From contig JAJFLH010000011.1 in assembly GCA_021772775.1 (NCBI GenBank), forward strand, positions 1 to 47,453: a stretch of 47,453 bases of DNA, read 5' to 3'. The notes beneath the pieces are model-generated. The model worked only from the letters and a program-made list of their open reading frames with translations. It was not told the origin of the DNA and ran no database searches. Numbering within the stretch: the first letter of the stretch is position 1; each line of letters begins with the position of its first letter. The stretch is from Mariprofundus sp. (GTDB lineage Bacteria; Pseudomonadota; Zetaproteobacteria; Mariprofundales; Mariprofundaceae). Made by a program: the position numbers and the translations under genes. Of the stretch, positions 22,372 through 33,815 are shown in pieces.

Positions 22372-23151
22372 CTAGCGGAACTTCAACTCCAACATTCTAC
22401 CGCCGGAAACATCCGCAATTTTCTGGAAAGCCACCCTCGTACTTGTATCGCTACTACCCAATGGCAAGGTAAATACTGGTGAGGAGATGGCATGAAAATG
22501 CACTGTATCTGTCGGAGCTTCATCGCCAATCAACAGATAAGCCCCGGGAATAGGTGAATTTTTGGTGATCGTATCGAACGCATGTCCAATCGTCTCTTCA
22601 CCTCCTACAAAGGGAGCCTCTTGCATCAGCCGATCAAACATTTCTCCCATTGTGCCAGTAAAAGTATTGGTTTTCAGGTCGGCATACCAGCTTACAGCAC
22701 TCAAATGTTTACCTGAACGAATCGCAATGACTCGCAAAACAGGAATCAAAAAGGAAGTAACACCATGCATGGAACCGGTGGCATCAATAACCAAATGCAG
22801 GTCTTTACCCGGCAGAGCACGTAAACCTTGTACCATCAGTTCAAAATCCTTGCGCCCCTTTCCACTAAATCCAGCCGCTGCCAACACCTTATCCATCTGT
22901 GCTGAGCTATCAGCTCCGGCCAGCGTATTCATCTCCTCAATAAGCTCAATATTACGCGCATTCGATTTCGCCAGAGCCGATTCAAGTCTCGCAATTTCAG
23001 CCTTGCTCAGCTCAGATTCACCACCACCCTGCATTTTCGATACGAGAAGAATCATCGCCAATAGAAATATAAATGCAGCGAGCATCAACAGAGCCATATC
23101 GGAAAACACCTCGTAAATCGAAGAAGTTTCCTGATTGTTACGCGTGCGCAT
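22372..23151 (-). CDS. TolR/MotB-like membrane protein with von Willebrand A domain
   Basis: The 259-residue protein has one N-terminal membrane helix with a charged residue at its start (VFSDMALLMLAAFIFLLAMI; Asp18), as in TolR, ExbD and MotB, where this aspartate carries protons. A coiled-coil linker (~45-80) follows. Residues ~118-255 form a vWA domain with a MIDAS-like D123-A-T-G-S-M and later T/D residues (GGEETIGHAF, LLIGDEAPTD). There is no OmpA-type peptidoglycan-binding domain. It is co-transcribed 2 bp after the MotA/TolQ-like gene, so the two probably form a proton-driven complex in the inner membrane with a metal-binding sensor or adaptor in the periplasm. Confidence 0.75.
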   Translation of the reverse strand: MRTRNNQETSSIYEVFSDMALLMLAAFIFLLAMILLVSKMQGGGESELSKAEIARLESALAKSNARNIELIEEMNTLAGADSSAQMDKVLAAAGFSGKGRKDFELMVQGLRALPGKDLHLVIDATGSMHGVTSFLIPVLRVIAIRSGKHLSAVSWYADLKTNTFTGTMGEMFDRLMQEAPFVGGEETIGHAFDTITKNSPIPGAYLLIGDEAPTDTVHFHAISSPVFTLPLGSSDTSTRVAFQKIADVSGGRMLELKFR

Positions 23152-23153
23152 AA

Positions 23154-24245
23154 TCAGCCCTCAGCTTTATCATCTTTGCTTGATGACTTTTGCGTCCCCT
23201 GAAACCCCATAGCGGCAAGCAAGCGCTGCTTAAAACCGGCTAACTGTTTTTGCAAGCTCAGCTCATAACGCAACACCTTGGCATAATGGCGATGGACGGC
23301 AATCGCCTTAAACACATCATCATCGGCTTGATTCAGACGTGTCGCATCTTTTAATTCACGCATCTCCTCTGCGAATTCAGCCATCGCTTGTTTACTTGAC
23401 TTTAATGAGTGCCCCAATATGGCCAAGCGCTGATCCATACCTGCCAAAGCCTCGTCCAAAACAAGAAAATCACGCTGCACTGAAGCTGTTAGCTGAACTG
23501 AGGCATACACCATGCAGCTACGCACCAATAGATCTTGCAGGGCTTCAATGGAGTTATCAGTGATATAGGCAAAGACACGCAACAGTACGCCGCCCATAAT
23601 AGCGCCGAGCAGGGTGGTATAAAATGCCAGCCCCATGCCTGAGAGTGCTTCACTCAAACTTGATAACATGGTCTCAGTGTCAGCAACGACGTTATTTAAA
23701 GCACCATTAAGACCTGTTAAAGTAATTGTTAAGCCCATTACAGTACCGATCAGACCGACGGTAATCAGCAGACTTCCCAATAGCCCTACAAAACGGCTGG
23801 AACGGATATGAGAAGCAAATTCGACAGTACTCAGATCGGTTAAGACGACCTGACCACCACTTTTATCAATATGTTGTAAAGCTTCAAAGAAACGGCTTGA
23901 TGCACTTGATACGCGACGCGTAGGTGAGCGAGCAGCATGCAGCCCCCCCCGCTTGAGTTTGGCCTCCATCATATAGGCAAAGTACCATTCACGTGTCAAT
24001 AATAGCACATGTAAAAAACTGATTACTACACCAAGAGCAAAAGCATAGATGATCACCCACGTAACCCGTGAGCTATCATGGCGAATAAATTCCCACAGAT
24101 CTGCCTGCTGATAAAGTTGCATAAAGACAACTGCACTTATCGTTGCCCACACAACCCAAAACACGAACGTTTTCATTCCACGTTGATCCATTGCTGTTTG
24201 TTGGCCATGTGTCCTGTTTGAACGAGATGATTGTGGGGAACTCAT
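23154..24245 (-). CDS. MotA/TolQ/ExbB-type proton channel protein
   Basis: The preferred start at 24245 follows GAGGT by seven bases; a GTG at 24254 is less likely. The 363-residue protein has membrane helices near residues 30-50 and 65-85. The MotA_ExbB core follows at ~165-250: LLGSLLITVGLIGTVMGLTI, then ALSGMGLAFYTTLLGAIMGG. A C-terminal cytoplasmic coiled coil (~255-360) is longer than in ExbB. The core matches the 5-subunit ring proteins of ion-driven motors. With the downstream TolR-vWA partner it forms a two-gene operon, separate from the flagellar and Tol-Pal systems, none of which is visible here. Confidence 0.8.
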   Translation of the reverse strand: MSSPQSSRSNRTHGQQTAMDQRGMKTFVFWVVWATISAVVFMQLYQQADLWEFIRHDSSRVTWVIIYAFALGVVISFLHVLLLTREWYFAYMMEAKLKRGGLHAARSPTRRVSSASSRFFEALQHIDKSGGQVVLTDLSTVEFASHIRSSRFVGLLGSLLITVGLIGTVMGLTITLTGLNGALNNVVADTETMLSSLSEALSGMGLAFYTTLLGAIMGGVLLRVFAYITDNSIEALQDLLVRSCMVYASVQLTASVQRDFLVLDEALAGMDQRLAILGHSLKSSKQAMAEFAEEMRELKDATRLNQADDDVFKAIAVHRHYAKVLRYELSLQKQLAGFKQRLLAAMGFQGTQKSSSKDDKAEG

Positions 24246-24281
24246 TGTAAACACCTCTACGATGCGAAACTTATTTATAAC

Positions 24282-24318
24282 AGAAAAAAACCGCCTGCGG
24301 ACGAATCCGAGGCGGTTT
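24282..24318 (-). terminator. Intrinsic terminator closing the haemoglobin/oxidase cluster
   Basis: AAACCGCCT...AGGCGGTTT with an inner CGGA-CGAA-TCCG hairpin lies 49 bp after the 37-residue gene. On the minus strand it is followed by TTTTTT. It separates the cluster from the MotA/vWA operon. Confidence 0.85.
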
Positions 24319-24366: not shown

Positions 24367-24480
24367 TTATCCTTCTCTGCGAGCCTTATCAGCAGCGCTA
24401 GCAAGAATCATTGGTGCAACAACACCTAATACAACAAACAGGATAAACGGATAAATAAAAGCAGTTAATTGCTGTTCCAT
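24367..24480 (-). CDS. 37-residue single-span membrane protein, twin of the haemoglobin anchor
   Basis: ATG at 24480 follows a strong GGGAGG site and opens a 37-codon frame ending in TAA. The product starts MEQQLTAFIYPFILFVVLGV and ends DKARREG. Its first 36 residues match the N-terminus of the membrane-bound truncated haemoglobin at 29219 at all but about three positions. It is thus a free-standing copy of that anchor: one hydrophobic helix (~8-29) followed by a short basic tail. It closes the NsrR-linked cluster and is followed by a strong terminator. A role as a small subunit or docking peptide for the membrane complex is inference. Confidence 0.8.
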   Translation of the reverse strand: MEQQLTAFIYPFILFVVLGVVAPMILASAADKARREG

Positions 24481-24611
24481 AGTGAAAAACCTCCCAGTAA
24501 AATAAAACTTGTGCGCAAGCATAGTCACTCCAAGTGGCTCATGCAAGCATTCGCTACACCCTCATTATTTATGATCAAGTAGCTATTTGGTGGGCTTCTT
24601 TATTAGAAACA

Positions 24612-24637
24612 AGCCCCAGCAATTAACAGCCGGGGCT
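24612..24637 (-). terminator. Hairpin after the 257-residue membrane protein gene
   Basis: AGCCCC-GC stem (nine pairs, one mismatch) lies 5 bases after the stop at 24643 and is followed on the minus strand by a T-rich stretch. It may partly separate the small anchor gene from the rest of the cluster. Confidence 0.55.
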
Positions 24638-24642
24638 CAATA

Positions 24643-25416
24643 TCATTCGTCGTCTTTATGTTTATGTTCACGGTCATAATCGCCCGCACGACGTTTTTTC
24701 GCAAACTTCCTTGGATCATGCCAGCCAATATCGTCAGGATCTTTCCAACCGGCAACACCACCAACAAAGAAATAGCCCGCCGCAAAAGTTAATACTGACA
24801 AGAACATTACCGTATACAGGATAAAAATGGTCATACCTTGGTCGACAAGCAGAGTGATGTCCAAACCATTCGGAGATTTCTTCACGTCACCAATGGCATA
24901 AGAGCTAGCCTGAACTCTCAGCTCCCCCCCCGTTAAGGTATAGAGTACATTCTTGCTCAGATAATTATTAATCTGGATAGTCATATCTTCAACAAGCACT
25001 TTTATGTCCTTGTTCCAAAGATTAAAACTAGGGTCGGTTGAGTTTTTGTCTAATACGGTTATGACAGCCTGATCTACCACTTTCAATAAAACGACATTCA
25101 CCACATTGTCAAAACCGAGTGTTGATACAAATTCTACAGTACCCCATTCAATCTCGGGATTCGCAGTCAAGGTCAAATCCAGTTTTACAGCCACTTCGCC
25201 TGTCTCTAATATTGTTGCGCGAGGATCCAGTATTTCATATGTAACACCGGTTGTCTTTGAAGTATCCTTAATATAAAAAGTTGAATCCATATTTGCCTGG
25301 ATGCTTTTTTGTGGAATAATCACTGGCAGGCTTTCCACCTTATAAACAATTCCACCAATGTTTGAGACTATAAAAAACAGTAATCCCAAGGTAAATATCA
25401 GCTTTTTAGTTAGCAC
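24643..25416 (-). CDS. Two-helix membrane protein of unknown function in the NsrR-linked cluster
   Basis: The 257-residue product has an N-terminal membrane helix (KLIFTLGLLFFIVSNIGGIV, ~5-24). A periplasmic beta-rich domain follows (~30-190; alternating hydrophobic strands with few cysteines), then a second membrane helix (IFILYTVMFLSVLTFAAGYF, ~198-217). The cytoplasmic tail is basic and histidine-rich (KKRRAGDYDREHKHKDDE). I recognise no family. Location directly after the triheme cytochrome gene suggests an accessory or anchoring subunit for the cytochrome/multicopper oxidase pair. The start at 25416 follows AGGAGA. Confidence 0.6.
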   Translation of the reverse strand: MLTKKLIFTLGLLFFIVSNIGGIVYKVESLPVIIPQKSIQANMDSTFYIKDTSKTTGVTYEILDPRATILETGEVAVKLDLTLTANPEIEWGTVEFVSTLGFDNVVNVVLLKVVDQAVITVLDKNSTDPSFNLWNKDIKVLVEDMTIQINNYLSKNVLYTLTGGELRVQASSYAIGDVKKSPNGLDITLLVDQGMTIFILYTVMFLSVLTFAAGYFFVGGVAGWKDPDDIGWHDPRKFAKKRRAGDYDREHKHKDDE

Positions 25417-25474
25417 ATTTCTCTCCTAGTTCCATTGTTTCAAAAACATACAGGCCATAACCTTTTATAAACAA

Positions 25475-25496
25475 GGCAGGGGATTTCTCCCCCACC
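25475..25496 (-). terminator. Stem-loop between cytochrome and membrane protein genes
   Basis: GGCAGGGGA and TCCCCCACC pair around a TTTC loop, with weak pairs, in the 107-bp gap. On the minus strand it is followed by TTGTTTATAAAAGG. It may attenuate transcription or protect the upstream mRNA. Confidence 0.4.
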
Positions 25497-25523
25497 TTTT
25501 AGTCTATAGTCGTACGTACACCC

Positions 25524-26603
25524 CTACTTAGCCTTAAACTCACATTGACATAGCTTACGCACATGTTTCACGAGATCAGTTATTTCAGCATCAGTTAACA
25601 GCGATTTCCAACCAGGTATCAAAGCTGATTTATCAATAGCCACACCACCGTCTTTAATCACCTTGAACAGTTCAGCATCTGATCTGGCCTGCATGTATTT
25701 GCCGTTACTATGGTTTCGGGCAGGTACAGCCATATCACGAGAGTTTATGCCACTACCATGACCAGAAATTCCATGACACTGCATGCAGTAGAGACGGTAG
25801 TTTTTAGCTGCCGATTCAATACCTTCCTCTTCGCTAAATACTGGTATCTCGCCACCACCACTCTGATCAGTTTTTGATTCATCACTTTGGCTGGCTACTG
25901 CCTCAACTTCACCTGACAGAGAAATAACATAGTTCACCAGTTTTTGTAACTCTTCTTCAGAAAGATCACGTTTTGGCATATATGTTTTGTGATTCCATGC
26001 GTTCGGATCACGGGTAAAACTAAGCATATAGTCCGCTTTTAAACGTTTGCCAGCAGTGTGAAGTTCAGGACCTGACAGACCACCAAAATCAGGAGCAATA
26101 CGGTGACATGCCATACAGCCATTGCCTTTATCAAACAACAACTCACCAGCTGAACCAGCTGTAATCATTGGATCCAGCTTTTCAGCCCGAATCAAAGCAG
26201 TTTTTGTCCGCTTAGATGACAGCAGTGATGCCACATGCCCCGCTTCTGTAGCAGTTAAACGCACATGTTCTGGAAAAGATGTCTTACGTATCATGTCCCT
26301 TTTTTTACCTGACTCAACATGATCCAGATAAAACATTCCAGAAGGCCTAACCTGCTTCGGGCTTTGCAACCACTCTTTCAACCAGCTTTGATTATATTTA
26401 TTGCCAGCATAATAGAGAGCAGGACCTTTACGCCAGAGCCCTTCAGTTTCAGGCCCTGGTTTCCCAGTCAGGTCATGACACGACGCACATGCTTTCTTTT
26501 CCATCACTTTCAAGCCCGCTGCACTATCTGCAAAAGCCGATGTGCAGAACAGCAGTGCAAAGGCTGTGCAAGCAGCTGATAAAGTGCGAGTCAGATATTT
26601 CAT
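25524..26603 (-). CDS. Exported triheme c-type cytochrome
   Basis: The 359-residue protein begins with a signal peptide (cleavage near AFA-DSA, residue 25). It carries three haem-attachment motifs: CASCH at 39-43, CMACH at 163-167 and CMQCH at 273-277, each with a downstream methionine candidate for axial ligation (such as TYMPKRDLS). It is built from three cytochrome-c domains of the cbb3/FixP or NcgB/C kind, with an acidic serine-rich linker near 238-262. It probably shuttles electrons in the periplasm to or from the multicopper oxidase encoded 2 bp upstream. No membrane helix other than the signal is visible. Confidence 0.9.
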   Translation of the reverse strand: MKYLTRTLSAACTAFALLFCTSAFADSAAGLKVMEKKACASCHDLTGKPGPETEGLWRKGPALYYAGNKYNQSWLKEWLQSPKQVRPSGMFYLDHVESGKKRDMIRKTSFPEHVRLTATEAGHVASLLSSKRTKTALIRAEKLDPMITAGSAGELLFDKGNGCMACHRIAPDFGGLSGPELHTAGKRLKADYMLSFTRDPNAWNHKTYMPKRDLSEEELQKLVNYVISLSGEVEAVASQSDESKTDQSGGGEIPVFSEEEGIESAAKNYRLYCMQCHGISGHGSGINSRDMAVPARNHSNGKYMQARSDAELFKVIKDGGVAIDKSALIPGWKSLLTDAEITDLVKHVRKLCQCEFKAK

Positions 26604-26605
26604 TA

Positions 26606-27661
26606 TTAGTGACCTCTGCGCCTAGTTTTAATCTTAGTTCCCTTGAATCCTTCATGTTCGAACAGACCATAAGTACCTGTTTTCATAGATTCTTGATAGA
26701 AGAAGTTATTGTCATACTTGATATCTTTCCATACATACCAGTCGTCCATTGGTGTGCCTTCGTACTCCTGCACAGTAATTGGACCACCAGGAAACTTACC
26801 ACCAGCAGTTACATGTTTATCAACATGATCGTGGAAGATAAAACGACCCTCTTTATGATCAGCAGTATAGATCGCATCATAACGCTCACCTGGACCGAAC
26901 ATAATGGTTTCTGATTTATATGGAGCAGCCAGTGGCAGACCATCTTTATGGGTCACAGTCCAATCGTGCCCATGAATATGCATGGAGTGAATCGCACCAC
27001 CAGCACCGTACAAACGTAAACGCACGACATCACCAGTCTTCATACGAATCGGCTGGGTATAAGGAAATGAACGACCATTAACCGAGAAGTAATCTTCAGT
27101 GTCATAAGGCGTTGAGCCTGTGCCAAATTTATCAGCATTTTTAGATTCCCATGAAGAGTGCATCATGATTATATCTTTGGTTACTGTTTTTTCCAAAGCA
27201 GTTGGGTTCTTCGGATCGATAACCATAGGCCCCCACATACCACGAATACCTACATGTTCGTTGACGTTCACGTGACAGTGGTACCACAGAGAACCTGGGC
27301 GATCTGCTTTCATTTTATAGGTAAATGTCGTACCTGGTTTAATAGGCTGCTGGGTCACACCCGGCACACCATCCATGCGCCATGAGCCCTTTTGATGCAT
27401 ACCATGCCAATGAATCGTATGCGGTAACGTCGTATTATTAGTCACATGAATGACCAGATCATCGCCCTCTTTGGCACGAATGAGCGGACCAGGAACTTGG
27501 CTGTTAAATGCAAAAACTTTGTAATTCAAATCCGGAGCCACTGCCAGCGACACCTCATCAATCGACATATTCATCTCACGAGTAGCTGCCTGCGCTGTCA
27601 TGGCAGTGAACATACAGCCCATGGCCAACACCAACGCCATCATTAATCTTAACACCCTCAT
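26606..27661 (-). CDS. Two-domain multicopper oxidase (type-1 copper in domain 1)
   Basis: The 351-residue periplasmic enzyme has a signal peptide ending near TAQA. Domain 1 holds HTIHWHG (H81, H84, H86) and WYHCHVNVNEHVGIRGMWG with the type-1 ligands C129, H136 and M142. Domain 2 has HSMHIHGHDW (225-234) and HDHVDKHV (277-284) but no cysteine, so it lacks a type-1 site. This is the pattern of small, trimeric two-domain oxidases of the type found in Nitrosomonas europaea, not of a classical NirK nitrite reductase. Likely role: oxidation of a metal, quinol or reduced nitrogen species with electrons passed via the adjacent cytochrome; the true substrate is not evident. C-terminal tail is basic (KTRRRGH). 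Confidence 0.85.
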   Translation of the reverse strand: MRVLRLMMALVLAMGCMFTAMTAQAATREMNMSIDEVSLAVAPDLNYKVFAFNSQVPGPLIRAKEGDDLVIHVTNNTTLPHTIHWHGMHQKGSWRMDGVPGVTQQPIKPGTTFTYKMKADRPGSLWYHCHVNVNEHVGIRGMWGPMVIDPKNPTALEKTVTKDIIMMHSSWESKNADKFGTGSTPYDTEDYFSVNGRSFPYTQPIRMKTGDVVRLRLYGAGGAIHSMHIHGHDWTVTHKDGLPLAAPYKSETIMFGPGERYDAIYTADHKEGRFIFHDHVDKHVTAGGKFPGGPITVQEYEGTPMDDWYVWKDIKYDNNFFYQESMKTGTYGLFEHEGFKGTKIKTRRRGH

Positions 27662-27714
27662 ATACTTACCTCCTCATTATTAATCTCAGCGTGATTACAC
27701 GCCAATTTCTTCGT

Positions 27715-28677
27715 TTAAAACACAAATGGATCAGAATAGATATCTGCCATTGATGCTCCAGCCAAAAAGCATGTCTGCTTCAAGCCATTCACAATGGCCG
27801 GATCACCACAAACATAAACTCGCCAACCAGAAAGATCCGGTATAGCAGATTTAACAAGCTGCTGGATATCGCCCTGCTTGCCGCCATCTGGCGCATCGCC
27901 ATGCAACACGCAGGGGGTATAATGCACTTTTTCATACTGATCCGCCAGCGCATTCATCTCATCACTATAATACAAACCTGGTATTGCTAGGCTGGCATGA
28001 AACAGATGAATCTCACCACGGTGACCATGTTTAAGCGCATCACGAACAATGCCGTACAAAGGAGCAAGACCAGTGCCAACAGCAACCATTAACAAAGGCT
28101 GATCCAGATCTTTTATTGTATAGAAACATTCACCAGCAGGGCCATCTATACTTAATGCATCACCGACACTGGTTTCATCATGCAAATAACCACTCATGCG
28201 ACCATCAGGGACGCGCTTGATATGCAGCTCCAAAGCCTCATCACTCGGTAGGCTGGCCAATGAATAACTCCGCACCAAACCAGTCTCAGGGTGTTTTACA
28301 TTCACAAACTGACCCGCGACATAATCAAACTCATGCTCGCACTTCAACCGCAAACGTAACACCGACTCGTTAAGCAACTGCTTTTCAACAACCGTAGCCG
28401 CCATACTACCTTTCGATAGATCCGCGACAGCCAACTCCATATCTTCTTCCGGTTTACAGACGCAGGTCAAAAAATAGTTTTGGGCCACCTGAGTATCTTT
28501 CAGGCCTTTTTGAGAATCAGCAGTAGGTCTGCCTTTGACTGCTTTAGTGATGCATGTCTGACACACCCCACTTTGACAGCCGGAAGCAACAAGCAAGCCA
28601 TGCCGCGTCAAACACTCAAGGATAGTTTCGCCCTGATGACAATCATATTGGTGACCATCAAAGGTAATCAACGGCAT
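27715..28677 (-). CDS. 2Fe-2S/FAD/NAD(P)H oxidoreductase
   Basis: The 320-residue protein starts with a plant-type ferredoxin domain (C34-x4-C39-x2-C42 and C72; residues 1-85). A ferredoxin-NADP reductase-like FAD domain with RSYSLASLP (~142-150) and an NAD-binding domain with VAVGTGLAPLYGI and VYVCGDPAIV (~185-295) follow; it ends in an aromatic residue. The layout is that of oxygenase reductases (benzoate or methane monooxygenase type). No oxygenase is nearby, but two truncated haemoglobins are directly upstream. I infer it is their electron donor, splitting the functions of a flavohaemoglobin over two genes. Cytoplasmic. Confidence 0.85.
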   Translation of the reverse strand: MPLITFDGHQYDCHQGETILECLTRHGLLVASGCQSGVCQTCITKAVKGRPTADSQKGLKDTQVAQNYFLTCVCKPEEDMELAVADLSKGSMAATVVEKQLLNESVLRLRLKCEHEFDYVAGQFVNVKHPETGLVRSYSLASLPSDEALELHIKRVPDGRMSGYLHDETSVGDALSIDGPAGECFYTIKDLDQPLLMVAVGTGLAPLYGIVRDALKHGHRGEIHLFHASLAIPGLYYSDEMNALADQYEKVHYTPCVLHGDAPDGGKQGDIQQLVKSAIPDLSGWRVYVCGDPAIVNGLKQTCFLAGASMADIYSDPFVF

Positions 28678-28712
28678 AGCACACTCTTTTTATTCATTTA
28701 TTTTCTTTCTTC

Positions 28713-29219
28713 TTATCTATTTAGAACGTCATCACGAACGCTGTCAGCAATGGTAATAATCTCAGCTATCTTCGCTTCACCAACACCCAACTCAGCCAGT
28801 GTTGCACGCAGATGTACCAACACGTGTTCAAAATGAGAGTCATTCAGCCCCATTTTTTCAACCAGGTGTTTATGACCAGCACGCATATCCATTCCTGTGT
28901 AATTGTTCGGACCACCAAACACCATAGTCAGGAAAGCTTTCTGCTTCGCAGCCTGCCTCGTCATGTCGGTACCTTCAAAAAACACTTTGATATAAGCATC
29001 TGCAAGCACACGCCTATAAAAGATATTAACAGCGGCATCAATTGCCGCAGCACCACCCAATTGATCATACAAACTCTTCTCAACGGGCTTATTGGCTTCT
29101 TCAGCAGCAGCTTCTCGACGGGCTTTATCCGCAGCGCCTGCCAGTATCATCGGTACAATTACACCGAGCACAACAAACAGGATAAAAGGATAAATAAAAG
29201 CGGTTAATTGTTGTTCCAT
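28713..29219 (-). CDS. Membrane-anchored group I truncated haemoglobin
   Basis: The 168-residue protein consists of an anchor (residues 1-35, one hydrophobic helix at ~8-28, then basic DKARRE), an acidic linker (EEANKPVEK) and a complete truncated haemoglobin domain (49-168). The globin carries FYRRVLAD with the B10 tyrosine, KQKAFLTMVFGGPNNYTG, and AGHKHLVEK with the proximal histidine. It is about 85% identical to the soluble globin encoded 12 bp upstream, so it arose by duplication plus fusion. The upstream gene's stop codon lies in its AAGGGG ribosome-binding site, implying coupling. The haem would sit on the cytoplasmic face if the basic stretch is inside. Membrane-bound truncated globins are unusual. 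Confidence 0.88.
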   Translation of the reverse strand: MEQQLTAFIYPFILFVVLGVIVPMILAGAADKARREAAAEEANKPVEKSLYDQLGGAAAIDAAVNIFYRRVLADAYIKVFFEGTDMTRQAAKQKAFLTMVFGGPNNYTGMDMRAGHKHLVEKMGLNDSHFEHVLVHLRATLAELGVGEAKIAEIITIADSVRDDVLNR

Positions 29220-29231
29220 CTGAAGAACCCC

Positions 29232-29597
29232 TTAGCGATTCAGTACATCAGCACGAACACTGTCCGCGATATTGATGATCTCTTGAATTTTATCCGTTCC
29301 AACACCCAACTCAGCTAATGTTGAACGCAGATGTGCCAATACGTGTTCAAAATGAGAATCATTCAGACCCATTTTTTCAACCAAATGCTTGTGACCCTCA
29401 CGCATATCCATACCAGTGTAATTATTTGGGCCGCCAAAGACCATGGTTAAAAAGGCTTTCTGTTTAGCGGCCTGTCTGGTCATGTCCGTACCTTCAAAAA
29501 AACGATTGATATAAGAATCAGCCAACACTCTGCGATAAAAAATATCTACCGCTGCATCGATTGAAGCTTCGCCGCCCAACTCATCATATAAACTCAT
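29232..29597 (-). CDS. Soluble group I truncated haemoglobin
   Basis: The 121-residue protein matches cyanobacterial/proteobacterial group I truncated haemoglobins over its whole length: LYDELGG, FYRRVLAD (B10 tyrosine at 21), DMTRQAAKQKAFLTMVFGG, MREGHKHLVEKMGL with proximal H69, and HFEHVLAHL. Globins of this class bind oxygen and NO and can dioxygenate NO to nitrate when re-reduced. A GGAGGA site seven bases before ATG predicts strong translation. It is the first gene of the minus-strand cluster and starts downstream of a promoter overlapping an NsrR-like site. Confidence 0.93.
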   Translation of the reverse strand: MSLYDELGGEASIDAAVDIFYRRVLADSYINRFFEGTDMTRQAAKQKAFLTMVFGGPNNYTGMDMREGHKHLVEKMGLNDSHFEHVLAHLRSTLAELGVGTDKIQEIINIADSVRADVLNR

Positions 29598-29668
29598 AAA
29601 AATTCCTCCAATGTTGTTGTATTATTTTCAGACAACCAGCAAAGAGCCCACTCACCCTCTCTATCTAC

Positions 29669-29692
29669 TGAAATGCATCTGAGATTCGAAAA
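29669..29692. promoter_or_regulatory. Candidate NsrR operator
   Basis: AAATGCATCTGAGATTCGAA contains ATGCAT and TGAGAT spaced exactly as I recall for the E. coli hmp NsrR site (roughly 15 of 20 positions agree). It lies immediately downstream of the -10 box of the cluster promoter, a repressing position, and upstream of nsrR itself. Confidence 0.55.
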
Positions 29693-29719
29693 TATGATAA
29701 TGCCCGCAAAAGATGTCAA
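29691..29719 (-). promoter_or_regulatory. Sigma-70 promoter of the haemoglobin/oxidase cluster
   Basis: On the minus strand a perfect -35 TTGACA (29714-29719), a 17-base spacer and CATATT (29691-29696, 4 of 6) predict a start near 29684, giving an ~87-base leader before the first globin gene. Confidence 0.65.
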
Positions 29720-29737
29720 CAGAATATATTTTTAAAT

Positions 29738-29765
29738 TTGATTATCATTATTTCTCGTCTATACT
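29738..29765 (+). promoter_or_regulatory. Putative nsrR promoter giving a leaderless mRNA
   Basis: TTGATT (29738-29743), a 16-base spacer and TATACT (29760-29765) place the expected start at or next to the A of the nsrR ATG at 29772. No ribosome-binding site precedes that ATG, consistent with a leaderless transcript. Confidence 0.45.
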
Positions 29766-29771
29766 CCAGCC

Positions 29772-30245
29772 ATGCACTTGACTCGCTATACAGATTATTC
29801 ACTGCGCGTTTTACTCTACCTTGGTTCAAATCCCGGGGAACGGGTGACGATCAGCCAAATTACGGAGTACTTTGACATCTCCCGAAATCATCTGGTTAAA
29901 GTTGTTCATAATTTGGGACAGCTCGGACTCATCCACACCATCCGAGGAAAATCAGGCGGCATGACCTTGGCCATGCCCCCAAAAGAGATTAATCTCGCTC
30001 ATGTCATCCGGAAAATTGAACCACATATGAACTTGCTGGAATGCTTTGATGATCAAACCAACACCTGCCCAATCACCATGCAGTGTGGATTGAAAAGCAT
30101 TTTATTTCAAGCGCGAAGGGGGTTTATGGATGTCTTAAATGATTACACCCTTGAAGACCTACTGCCACGCGAGGATCAACCATACAAACTCTCTTCCGAA
30201 CAGATCATTCCCTTTTCAACTATTCAGCGCTCAGCAAAAGCATAA
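29772..30245 (+). CDS. nsrR: Rrf2-family NO-responsive repressor NsrR
   Basis: The 157-residue regulator opens with MHLTRYTDYSLRVLLYLGSN and a winged helix (TISQITEYFDISRNHLVKVV, then TIRGKSGGMTLA). The cluster-binding loop holds C91, C99 and C105 in LLECFDDQTNTCPITMQCGL, matching the three cysteine ligands of the NsrR iron-sulfur cluster, which is destroyed by NO with loss of DNA binding. The end (FMDVLNDYTLEDLL) is also NsrR-like, which distinguishes it from IscR. It is divergent from the globin/oxidase cluster and most likely represses it in the absence of NO. Confidence 0.9.
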   Translation: MHLTRYTDYSLRVLLYLGSNPGERVTISQITEYFDISRNHLVKVVHNLGQLGLIHTIRGKSGGMTLAMPPKEINLAHVIRKIEPHMNLLECFDDQTNTCPITMQCGLKSILFQARRGFMDVLNDYTLEDLLPREDQPYKLSSEQIIPFSTIQRSAKA

Positions 30246-32621: not shown

Positions 32622-32728
32622 CGCCAGATACTACGCAGACACAACAAGGTTCGTCACCTACAACAAAGCCACAGGAATAATAAATGTATTTTATTTGCGC
32701 TATAGCATTAAATCGCTACGATTCGCCC

Positions 32729-33292
32729 ATGTCCAAAGACCTGTCTAAAAACACACACGAACAATCCCCAGCCGAAGAAACCAAAAAACCATTGGAACTA
32801 CGCTATCTAGGCAAGTTCCTCATCTTCTCCGTCGCATCCTTTTTTGTAGGAACAGTACATGGAGTTTTACAGGTTATTCCAGCTGTTCGCGCCTGGTTAG
32901 ATTCCATTGGTAGTCCCTATGGCGGCCCCGGCCACATGATTGACCCGCTGGCTCATGCTCATATTAACCTCGTTGGTGGCGTCACCATACTTGGCATGGC
33001 TATGACCTATTATCTGCTTCCAAAAATCACCCACAAACCAGTTTATTCTCGCAGCATGGCTGAACACTCGTTCTGGTGGACAGCCTGTGGTGTCTCTGCC
33101 TTTTATATCGCATTAATGATTTTCGGTATTTGGGAGGGCAATCTGTGGCTCACCACCCCGGAAGAGATACCTGCCATTCACCGCTTTTATGGCCCAATCA
33201 TCTCCATTGCAGCTACCGCTCTCGCTATCGGCTTTTGGGCCTATCTAGCCAATGTGCTATTGTCCGTAAAAGGCTTGTACAAGAACTCTTAA
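32729..33292 (+). CDS. Short haem-copper oxidase subunit I-like membrane protein
   Basis: The 187-residue product (start at 32729; a longer frame from 32684 exists) has four predicted helices. The segment GGPGHMIDPLAHAHINLVGG followed by GMAMTYYLLPKI resembles the haem-ligand helix of CcoN/NorB-type subunits I, where the histidine-x-histidine pair binds low-spin haem. A full subunit has about twelve helices and a CuB site; neither is present, so this cannot be a complete oxidase. It could be a haem-binding membrane protein derived from one. It overlaps no other gene and is followed 1 bp later by the next gene, so the two form an operon. Confidence 0.5.
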   Translation: MSKDLSKNTHEQSPAEETKKPLELRYLGKFLIFSVASFFVGTVHGVLQVIPAVRAWLDSIGSPYGGPGHMIDPLAHAHINLVGGVTILGMAMTYYLLPKITHKPVYSRSMAEHSFWWTACGVSAFYIALMIFGIWEGNLWLTTPEEIPAIHRFYGPIISIAATALAIGFWAYLANVLLSVKGLYKNS

Positions 33293-33293
33293 T

Positions 33294-33815
33294 ATGAGCC
33301 CTCGTTTAGAATGCGGCTGCCCATCTGAATATCCGGATTGGTGCAATGGTGATATTGATCTGGGCGGACAACTTGTTCACGCGCTAAAAATACCCATGTT
33401 TATGCATATGCCGATTGGCTATGAAGCTTATCTGGTCAGACAAAAAGAAGATATCGAACGCTTAGAGCTAACTGAAAAATGGCCTGGTTTTAACCTGACC
33501 AGAACAGGTGCTTTTCGTGGCCAGATGCTTTGTCCATTAATTGAAGAGAACTCGCCGGCTCGTAATATATCCGTCTTAAAGAACCCGTTTAACCTTCGCC
33601 TGCACCTTCTGCGCGGCGATGTCTCCGAAATCAAAACTCAGGTACGCAAAATGCAGTCGGAGCTACTGGATGAAGGATTGATGCCGAAAGAGCTCTACAT
33701 GAGCTATCTCACCTGTCCGCTGTGTGAAGAGAAACAAGGCGGCAAACGTCTGTTCCTAGCACGCCGCTGGATCAAAAACCCAAAACTCAAAGAGCGATTA
33801 AACAAAAAACAATAA
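33294..33815 (+). CDS. Cysteine-containing cytoplasmic protein of unknown function
   Basis: The 173-residue protein begins at ATG just after the stop of the preceding gene. Cysteines at 7, 9 and 17 (ECGCPSEYPDWC) and a CPLCEE knuckle at 141-146 could form a metal site; C80 lies in MLCPLIEEN. The C-terminus is strongly basic (RRWIKNPKLKERLNKKQ). There are no membrane helices or signal. I do not recognise a family. Coupling to the haem-copper-like membrane protein suggests a maturation or sensing role, which is speculation. Confidence 0.55.
   Translation: MSPRLECGCPSEYPDWCNGDIDLGGQLVHALKIPMFMHMPIGYEAYLVRQKEDIERLELTEKWPGFNLTRTGAFRGQMLCPLIEENSPARNISVLKNPFNLRLHLLRGDVSEIKTQVRKMQSELLDEGLMPKELYMSYLTCPLCEEKQGGKRLFLARRWIKNPKLKERLNKKQ

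Follow-up and report, generated by a model that had tools for sequence, protein, structure and literature searches.

Two kinds of gene cluster are the closest precedents for the locus described here. The first pairs a group I truncated haemoglobin (trHb) with a ferredoxin-type reductase. In Legionella pneumophila, such a pair, glbN-lpg2536, was predicted to be the sole target of the repressor NsrR, and an oxidation of NO like that carried out by the flavohaemoglobin Hmp was proposed for it (Rodionov, 2005, PMC1274295). The same proposal was repeated by Gardner (2012, PMC3820574), so that a split flavohaemoglobin is already a known idea. A group I trHb with an FAD enzyme as its partner is also found in Chlamydomonas, where nitrate reductase supplies electrons, by way of its FAD, to THB1, a NO dioxygenase with a distal Lys haem ligand (PMC4620153). 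The second kind of cluster, the ncgABC-nirK genes of Nitrosomonas europaea, combines an NcgA-type oxidase with NcgB and NcgC cytochromes in an NsrR context, and was reported earlier in Zetaproteobacteria (Singer, 2013, PMC3603346).

Genes of both kinds lie together in an iron-oxidising zetaproteobacterium of Mariprofundus type, whose draft genome comprises 3.1 Mb. Their cluster falls in the window, the stretch of 47,453 nucleotides of that genome analysed here, and is likely to be a two-unit operon for NO/nitrite defence under NsrR repression, by which these iron-oxidising marine bacteria would probably destroy NO with two small haemoglobins. The first-pass annotation had regarded the composition as that of no described system. 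This must be narrowed, since a trHb–reductase pair under NsrR had already been predicted in Legionella and the zetaproteobacterial ncgABC-nirK genes had been reported; the core and the Ncg cassette are thus of known kinds, and what is new is the merger of the two units, together with a membrane tether that is matched by a free helix.

The nsrR gene (29772..30245, plus strand) and the seven minus-strand genes diverging from it are all intact open reading frames with the boundaries first annotated for them. The seven encode, in order, a soluble group I trHb of 121 aa (trHb1, 29232..29597), a 168-aa group I trHb with an N-terminal transmembrane anchor (mTrHb, 28713..29219), a 320-aa 2Fe-2S/FAD/NAD reductase (27715..28677), a two-domain, NcgA-like multicopper oxidase (MCO, 26606..27661), a triheme cytochrome c (25524..26603), a 257-aa membrane protein, M257 (24643..25416), and a 37-aa peptide that is a near copy of the mTrHb anchor (24367..24480). 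The gaps between them are 12, 35, 53, 2, 107, and 162 bp. Pfam and NCBIfam back the families of the named proteins, with the exceptions of M257 and the anchor peptide, and an Rfam search found no RNA feature. The same gene order was found again in other species, so the locus reflects more than chance. Co-transcription of the operon is inferred; counted against control through a single transcript are the MCO gene, which has no operator of its own, and a possible terminator before the peptide, a hairpin at 24610..24639 (minus strand) between M257 and the peptide. This signal is weak, because the region holds 8 such hairpins against 4.8 expected from shuffles, but given the hairpin the peptide may form a partly separate unit. 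A second hairpin, followed by a T run, lies 3′ of the peptide (24291..24304, minus strand) and is a likely terminator.

Both globins match PF01152 (E 1.1e-20 for trHb1, 1.1e-18 for mTrHb), and their closest structures are cyanoglobin and group 1 trHbs, which together place them in group I. Tyr B10, Gln E7, Lys E10, Gln E11, and His F8 are in place in each. The E10 lysine aligns with the histidine found at the same place in cyanoglobin; B10 Tyr, E11 Gln, and E10 Lys, as in the NO dioxygenase THB1, count in favour of the defence reading, with Lys ligation putative here. The partner also differs from that of THB1, being a dedicated reductase, whose gene lies directly downstream of the trHb genes and which consists of Fer2, FAD, and NAD domains (PF00111, PF00970, PF00175) with the 2Fe-2S cysteine motif present. 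The overall reaction expected, and the control by NsrR, would be those of Hmp. Unlike Hmp, the globin lies in genes separate from those of the FAD and NAD domains, is of the truncated 2/2 type, is joined by an additional 2Fe-2S domain, and occurs in a membrane form as well. The N-terminal anchor of mTrHb is kept across the aligned relatives, which is consistent with the membrane tethering first suggested for it; literature searches restricted to open access found no membrane-anchored bacterial trHb. Relative to Legionella glbN-lpg2536, this locus differs in its two trHbs, one of them tethered, in its free anchor peptide and Ncg cassette, and in having nsrR next door.

The pairing of trHb and reductase is widespread. 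Of 40 stretches sampled from the family, 25 carry trHb1, mTrHb, and the reductase together and 23 have NsrR too, with several of the remaining stretches ending at a contig edge; the sister genomes of the genus and family are Mariprofundus or Zetaproteobacteria by name and include M. ferrooxydans PV-1. NsrR, the soluble and membrane-anchored trHbs, the reductase, and the anchor peptide thus make up the family-wide core. Beyond the Zetaproteobacteria, a scan of named genomes, which was biased toward globins resembling the query and is not a census, found the pair in Methylococcales, Chromatiales, Alphaproteobacteria, Myxococcota, and Ferrovum. The reductase lies immediately 3′ of the trHb in 50 of these 56 loci (median gap 20 bp), with an NsrR/Rrf2 gene nearby in 25. 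The scan pattern itself contained Lys, and the frequency of E10 Lys outside the Zetaproteobacteria is therefore not used as evidence. The split, flavohaemoglobin-like module proposed in the first-pass annotation gains from this adjacency, which suggests that split NO dioxygenases are a frequent substitute for Hmp that has received little study. Flavohaemoglobin itself scored over the cut-off in none of 74 family genomes. Five near-complete Mariprofundus genomes (G001, G008, G012, G015, and G020) lack the whole module, and the lifestyle is therefore possible without it.

A different role for the same proteins would be mainly to bind O2 when it is scarce and pass it on to membrane oxidases, the reductase merely keeping the trHbs ferrous and NO control being incidental. 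The hosts are indeed microaerophiles (Mariprofundus, PMC3603346), one of the globins is tethered to the membrane, where the oxidases reside, and some methanotroph trHbs, of groups II and III, are thought to be O2 carriers (PMC11102522). A dedicated reductase in nearly all lineages, and the recurrent NsrR linkage with its operators, fit NO turnover better than carriage. In trHbN, a distal pocket with Tyr B10 and Gln E11 favours tight O2 binding, and the presence of both residues here likewise speaks against delivery, which is distinctly unlikely as the main function.

The regulator assigned to the locus, an NO-sensing repressor of the Rrf2 family, matches Pfam Rrf2 (E 3.5e-36) and carries Cys 91/99/105; its best NCBIfam match is NF008240 (NsrR), at 133 bits under a curated cut-off of 182. 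In most relatives nsrR adjoins the trHb genes. An element of about AAAGATATATTnnnTTGACATCTTTTGTCCA over the −35 box is conserved in 29 zetaproteobacterial promoters, and its copy at 29702-29735 (minus strand), in the promoter of the trHb operon, is the sole match above threshold in the window. It overlaps the −35 box TTGACA (29719-29714), with promoter-like hexamers present. The copy agrees with the NsrR consensus at 19 of 24 positions (p 0.02 on its own), and this departure from the consensus counts against the defence reading. Perfect or nearly perfect canonical NsrR dyads occur in the trHb promoters of the methanotroph Methylobacter. An NsrR operator thus appears to sit at the trHb promoter, in a zetaproteobacterial form that diverges from the consensus, and the link to NsrR first suggested for the cluster is borne out by both the neighbouring gene and the operator-like element. 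NsrR-like sites were sought upstream of the window's MCO, M257, and COX1-like genes, and none was found.

Under the defence reading, NADH would reduce the 2Fe-2S/FAD reductase in the cytoplasm, and the reductase, as the presumed partner, would reduce the ferric haem of both the soluble and the tethered trHb, whose oxy-haem would convert NO to nitrate. Basic residues follow the mTrHb helix, which would place its globin on the cytoplasmic side; tethered at the inner membrane, it could catch NO on its way to the respiratory chain. Nitrite/NO chemistry in the periplasm would fall to NcgA and an NcgB-NcgC fusion, which M257 may keep close to the membrane, and one effect may be a low level of NO derived from NirK. 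Attack of NO on the Fe-S cluster of NsrR would release the promoter. NO is to be expected in or near these cells, given that the genome encodes a nitrite reductase homologue and that Zetaproteobacteria in vent mats express nirK highly and have been credited with removing nitrite (PMC8114936). Of the COX1-family proteins of this genome, the two of full length both fit CcoN, one over and one under the cut-off, and neither fits NorB. Fe(II) and nitrite form NO chemically, and iron-rich habitats can thereby produce it. In a genome that shows neither flavohaemoglobin nor NorB, the operon offers a testable answer to how such iron oxidisers survive NO.

The genes for the MCO, the triheme cytochrome, and M257 form the second unit. 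The closest solved structures to the MCO (PF07732, PF07731) are PDB 2zwn (540 bits) and 3g5w (386 bits); its copper-ligand motifs follow those of 2zwn, with a type 1 copper motif in domain 1. The cytochrome, with three CXXCH motifs, matches the separate ncgB (51%) and ncgC (60%) products of its own genome. By these sequence comparisons, the oxidase is NcgA and the cytochrome a fusion of diheme NcgB with monoheme NcgC, in keeping with the resemblance to ncgABC noted at first. Fused ncgB and ncgC, an unlinked nirK, an added membrane protein with a predicted YceB fold, and placement inside a trHb operon set the cassette apart from ncgABC-nirK clusters. The first-pass annotation had also stated that nirK is missing. 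It is absent from the cluster in the window, but a nirK-like gene lies with ncgB and ncgC at the edge of contig C20 of the same genome, and an NsrR-like dyad (20 of 24) precedes that cluster.

M257 follows the fused cytochrome in all relatives that carry the fusion. Its AlphaFold2 model (pLDDT 77.9), built from only 8 aligned sequences, has as its top match in the PDB the E. coli YceB structure 3l6i (DUF1439; E 2.1e-4, probability 1.00, TM 0.37/0.51), and with moderate confidence the protein is modelled as a YceB-like periplasmic domain between two transmembrane helices. Unlike YceB, it would be held by these helices instead of by lipid, and searches of Pfam and NCBIfam returned no sequence-family match.

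Distribution bears on how the cassette came to lie here. It occurs between the reductase and the anchor peptide in five species, namely that of the window and G006, G009 (where the contig ends inside M257), G011, and G014; in G025, G065, G067, and G071 it lies away from trHb genes. Unfused ncgB and ncgC occur beyond NsrR in G026, G033, G092, G093, and G095, and in other relatives adjoin nirK-like genes or a cbb3-like oxidase operon. NsrR-like dyads precede the stand-alone cassettes (20-22 of 24) and, in several other relatives, ncgA or ncgB. Most simply read, two members of a single NsrR regulon were merged into one gene cluster. Of the seven genes, whose conservation together was proposed at first as a check on the system, the core recurs in order in about 23-25 family loci; the seven appear to represent two NsrR-linked units that came together in a single subclade, and not one ancestral system. 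One might instead suppose that the cassette serves the oxidation of a metal (copper or iron) or of phenols, its proximity to trHb being accidental, inasmuch as laccase-like enzymes with two domains accept a broad range of substrates and some copies of the cassette lie apart from trHb genes. This is unlikely, as the stand-alone copies are the very ones preceded by NsrR-like dyads, homologues adjoin nirK or the NsrR/trHb locus in several species, and ncgABC confers nitrite tolerance in Nitrosomonas, as far as the summary in PMC5080386 goes.

The anchor peptide, passed over at first as a minor extra, is instead the most unusual component of the cluster and its new part. The mechanical reading frame starts at a TTG (24546), but the ATG at 24480, which GGGAGG precedes, is the more likely start, being the one used by homologues in about 39 genomes. 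These homologues are 34-38 aa long and in most loci encoded near the reductase. In each genome, a profile search with the peptide finds the peptide and the mTrHb anchor and otherwise nothing significant. It belongs to no Pfam or NCBIfam family, the anchor profile has no significant match in the PDB, and literature searches, limited to open access, found no such peptide. It is absent from the five near-complete relatives that lack the trHb module. In two genomes closely related to each other, G007 and G022 (94-95% complete), mTrHb carries an unrelated anchor, a swap that, given their relatedness, was probably one event, and the peptide was not found.

Within a genome the peptide and the mTrHb helix are 84% identical, while orthologues agree at 55% between genomes (n = 20 genomes); the within-genome match is greater in 189 of 190 genome pairs, with one tie. 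Among close relatives only, the helix still resembles its own partner more (0.840 vs. 0.735; Wilcoxon p 2.5e-4, a value that ignores shared ancestry). The attached globins do not mirror this contrast, their within-genome similarity being greater than that of orthologues in 116 comparisons and smaller in 92. Two helices that keep the same sequence within a species suggest that they work together. Direct pairing of the helices and a common third partner both fit the data; most likely the peptide packs with the tether helix of mTrHb or uses the same membrane partner.

The same resemblance could be that of a functionless, decaying copy of mTrHb kept similar by gene conversion, since the peptide is nearly identical to the anchor and lies in the same neighbourhood. 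Synonymous codons of the two helices agree equally within and between genomes (0.47 in each case), so that, with the protein match high and the silent sites at background, gene conversion is not the general source of the match; L044 (18/22) and L037 (17/22), where silent sites are partly common, are possible exceptions. A constant length across about 39 genomes and persistence at other loci, near gpmI, are likewise not what decay would leave, and this explanation is very unlikely. The proposal preferred here is a two-part membrane anchor for the NO dioxygenase, made up of the mTrHb helix and the peptide. That the peptide is a true subunit, a co-evolving free helix of a membrane NO dioxygenase, is given an even chance. 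G065 and G071 have an untethered trHb yet retain the peptide, near gpmI, which counts against the defence reading and implies that the peptide may also act without mTrHb. If the proposal is true, the anchored globin and the free helix would assemble together, or occupy one docking site on a respiratory complex, thereby setting the number and place of NO-destroying haems in the membrane. As free and fused copies of one helix evolving in step, the two would provide a clear natural example of an enzyme paired with a membrane microprotein.

In their tree, the soluble globins and the membrane ones are not resolved into two clean clades, which accounts for the mixed outcome of the globin comparison used as a control and indicates more than one duplication or conversion; a single ancient duplication is therefore not claimed.

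Several further observations concern the neighbourhood and the wider globin family. Downstream of the anchor peptide lies a MotA/MotB-like gene pair (window 22372-24254, minus strand), as in many relatives, where gpmI, missing there in the window, often stands in between. At 32684-33815 (plus strand), a fragment-like protein of 202 aa, similar to the C-terminal portion of subunit I of cbb3 oxidase, is followed by a 173-aa Bact_hydrolase (Pfam) protein; the pair is kept near nsrR in several relatives, and a similar short COX1-like protein is encoded on contig C18, where a divergent CcoN lies close by. Two relatives have a membrane trHb with a second globin fused to it, as anchor-globin-globin (L049 7668-8537; L050 9762-10628, the latter with no reductase alongside). 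Double-globin trHbs also occur in Gammaproteobacteria (L160 7941-8747; L172 4135-4947; L195 2285-3112; L202 7596-8411); at their N-termini stands a short helix that may be amphipathic (MFSAIAKFFSGG is one example), perhaps another route to the membrane. A contig labelled as gammaproteobacterial (L144) carries, with NsrR and a reductase, a trHb nested among the zetaproteobacterial ones, the result of either a mislabelled bin or gene transfer. Finally, the genome of the window encodes two further, distant trHbs whose genes adjoin each other (L109 7671-8582, contig C37; L001), and a fifth trHb on contig C25.
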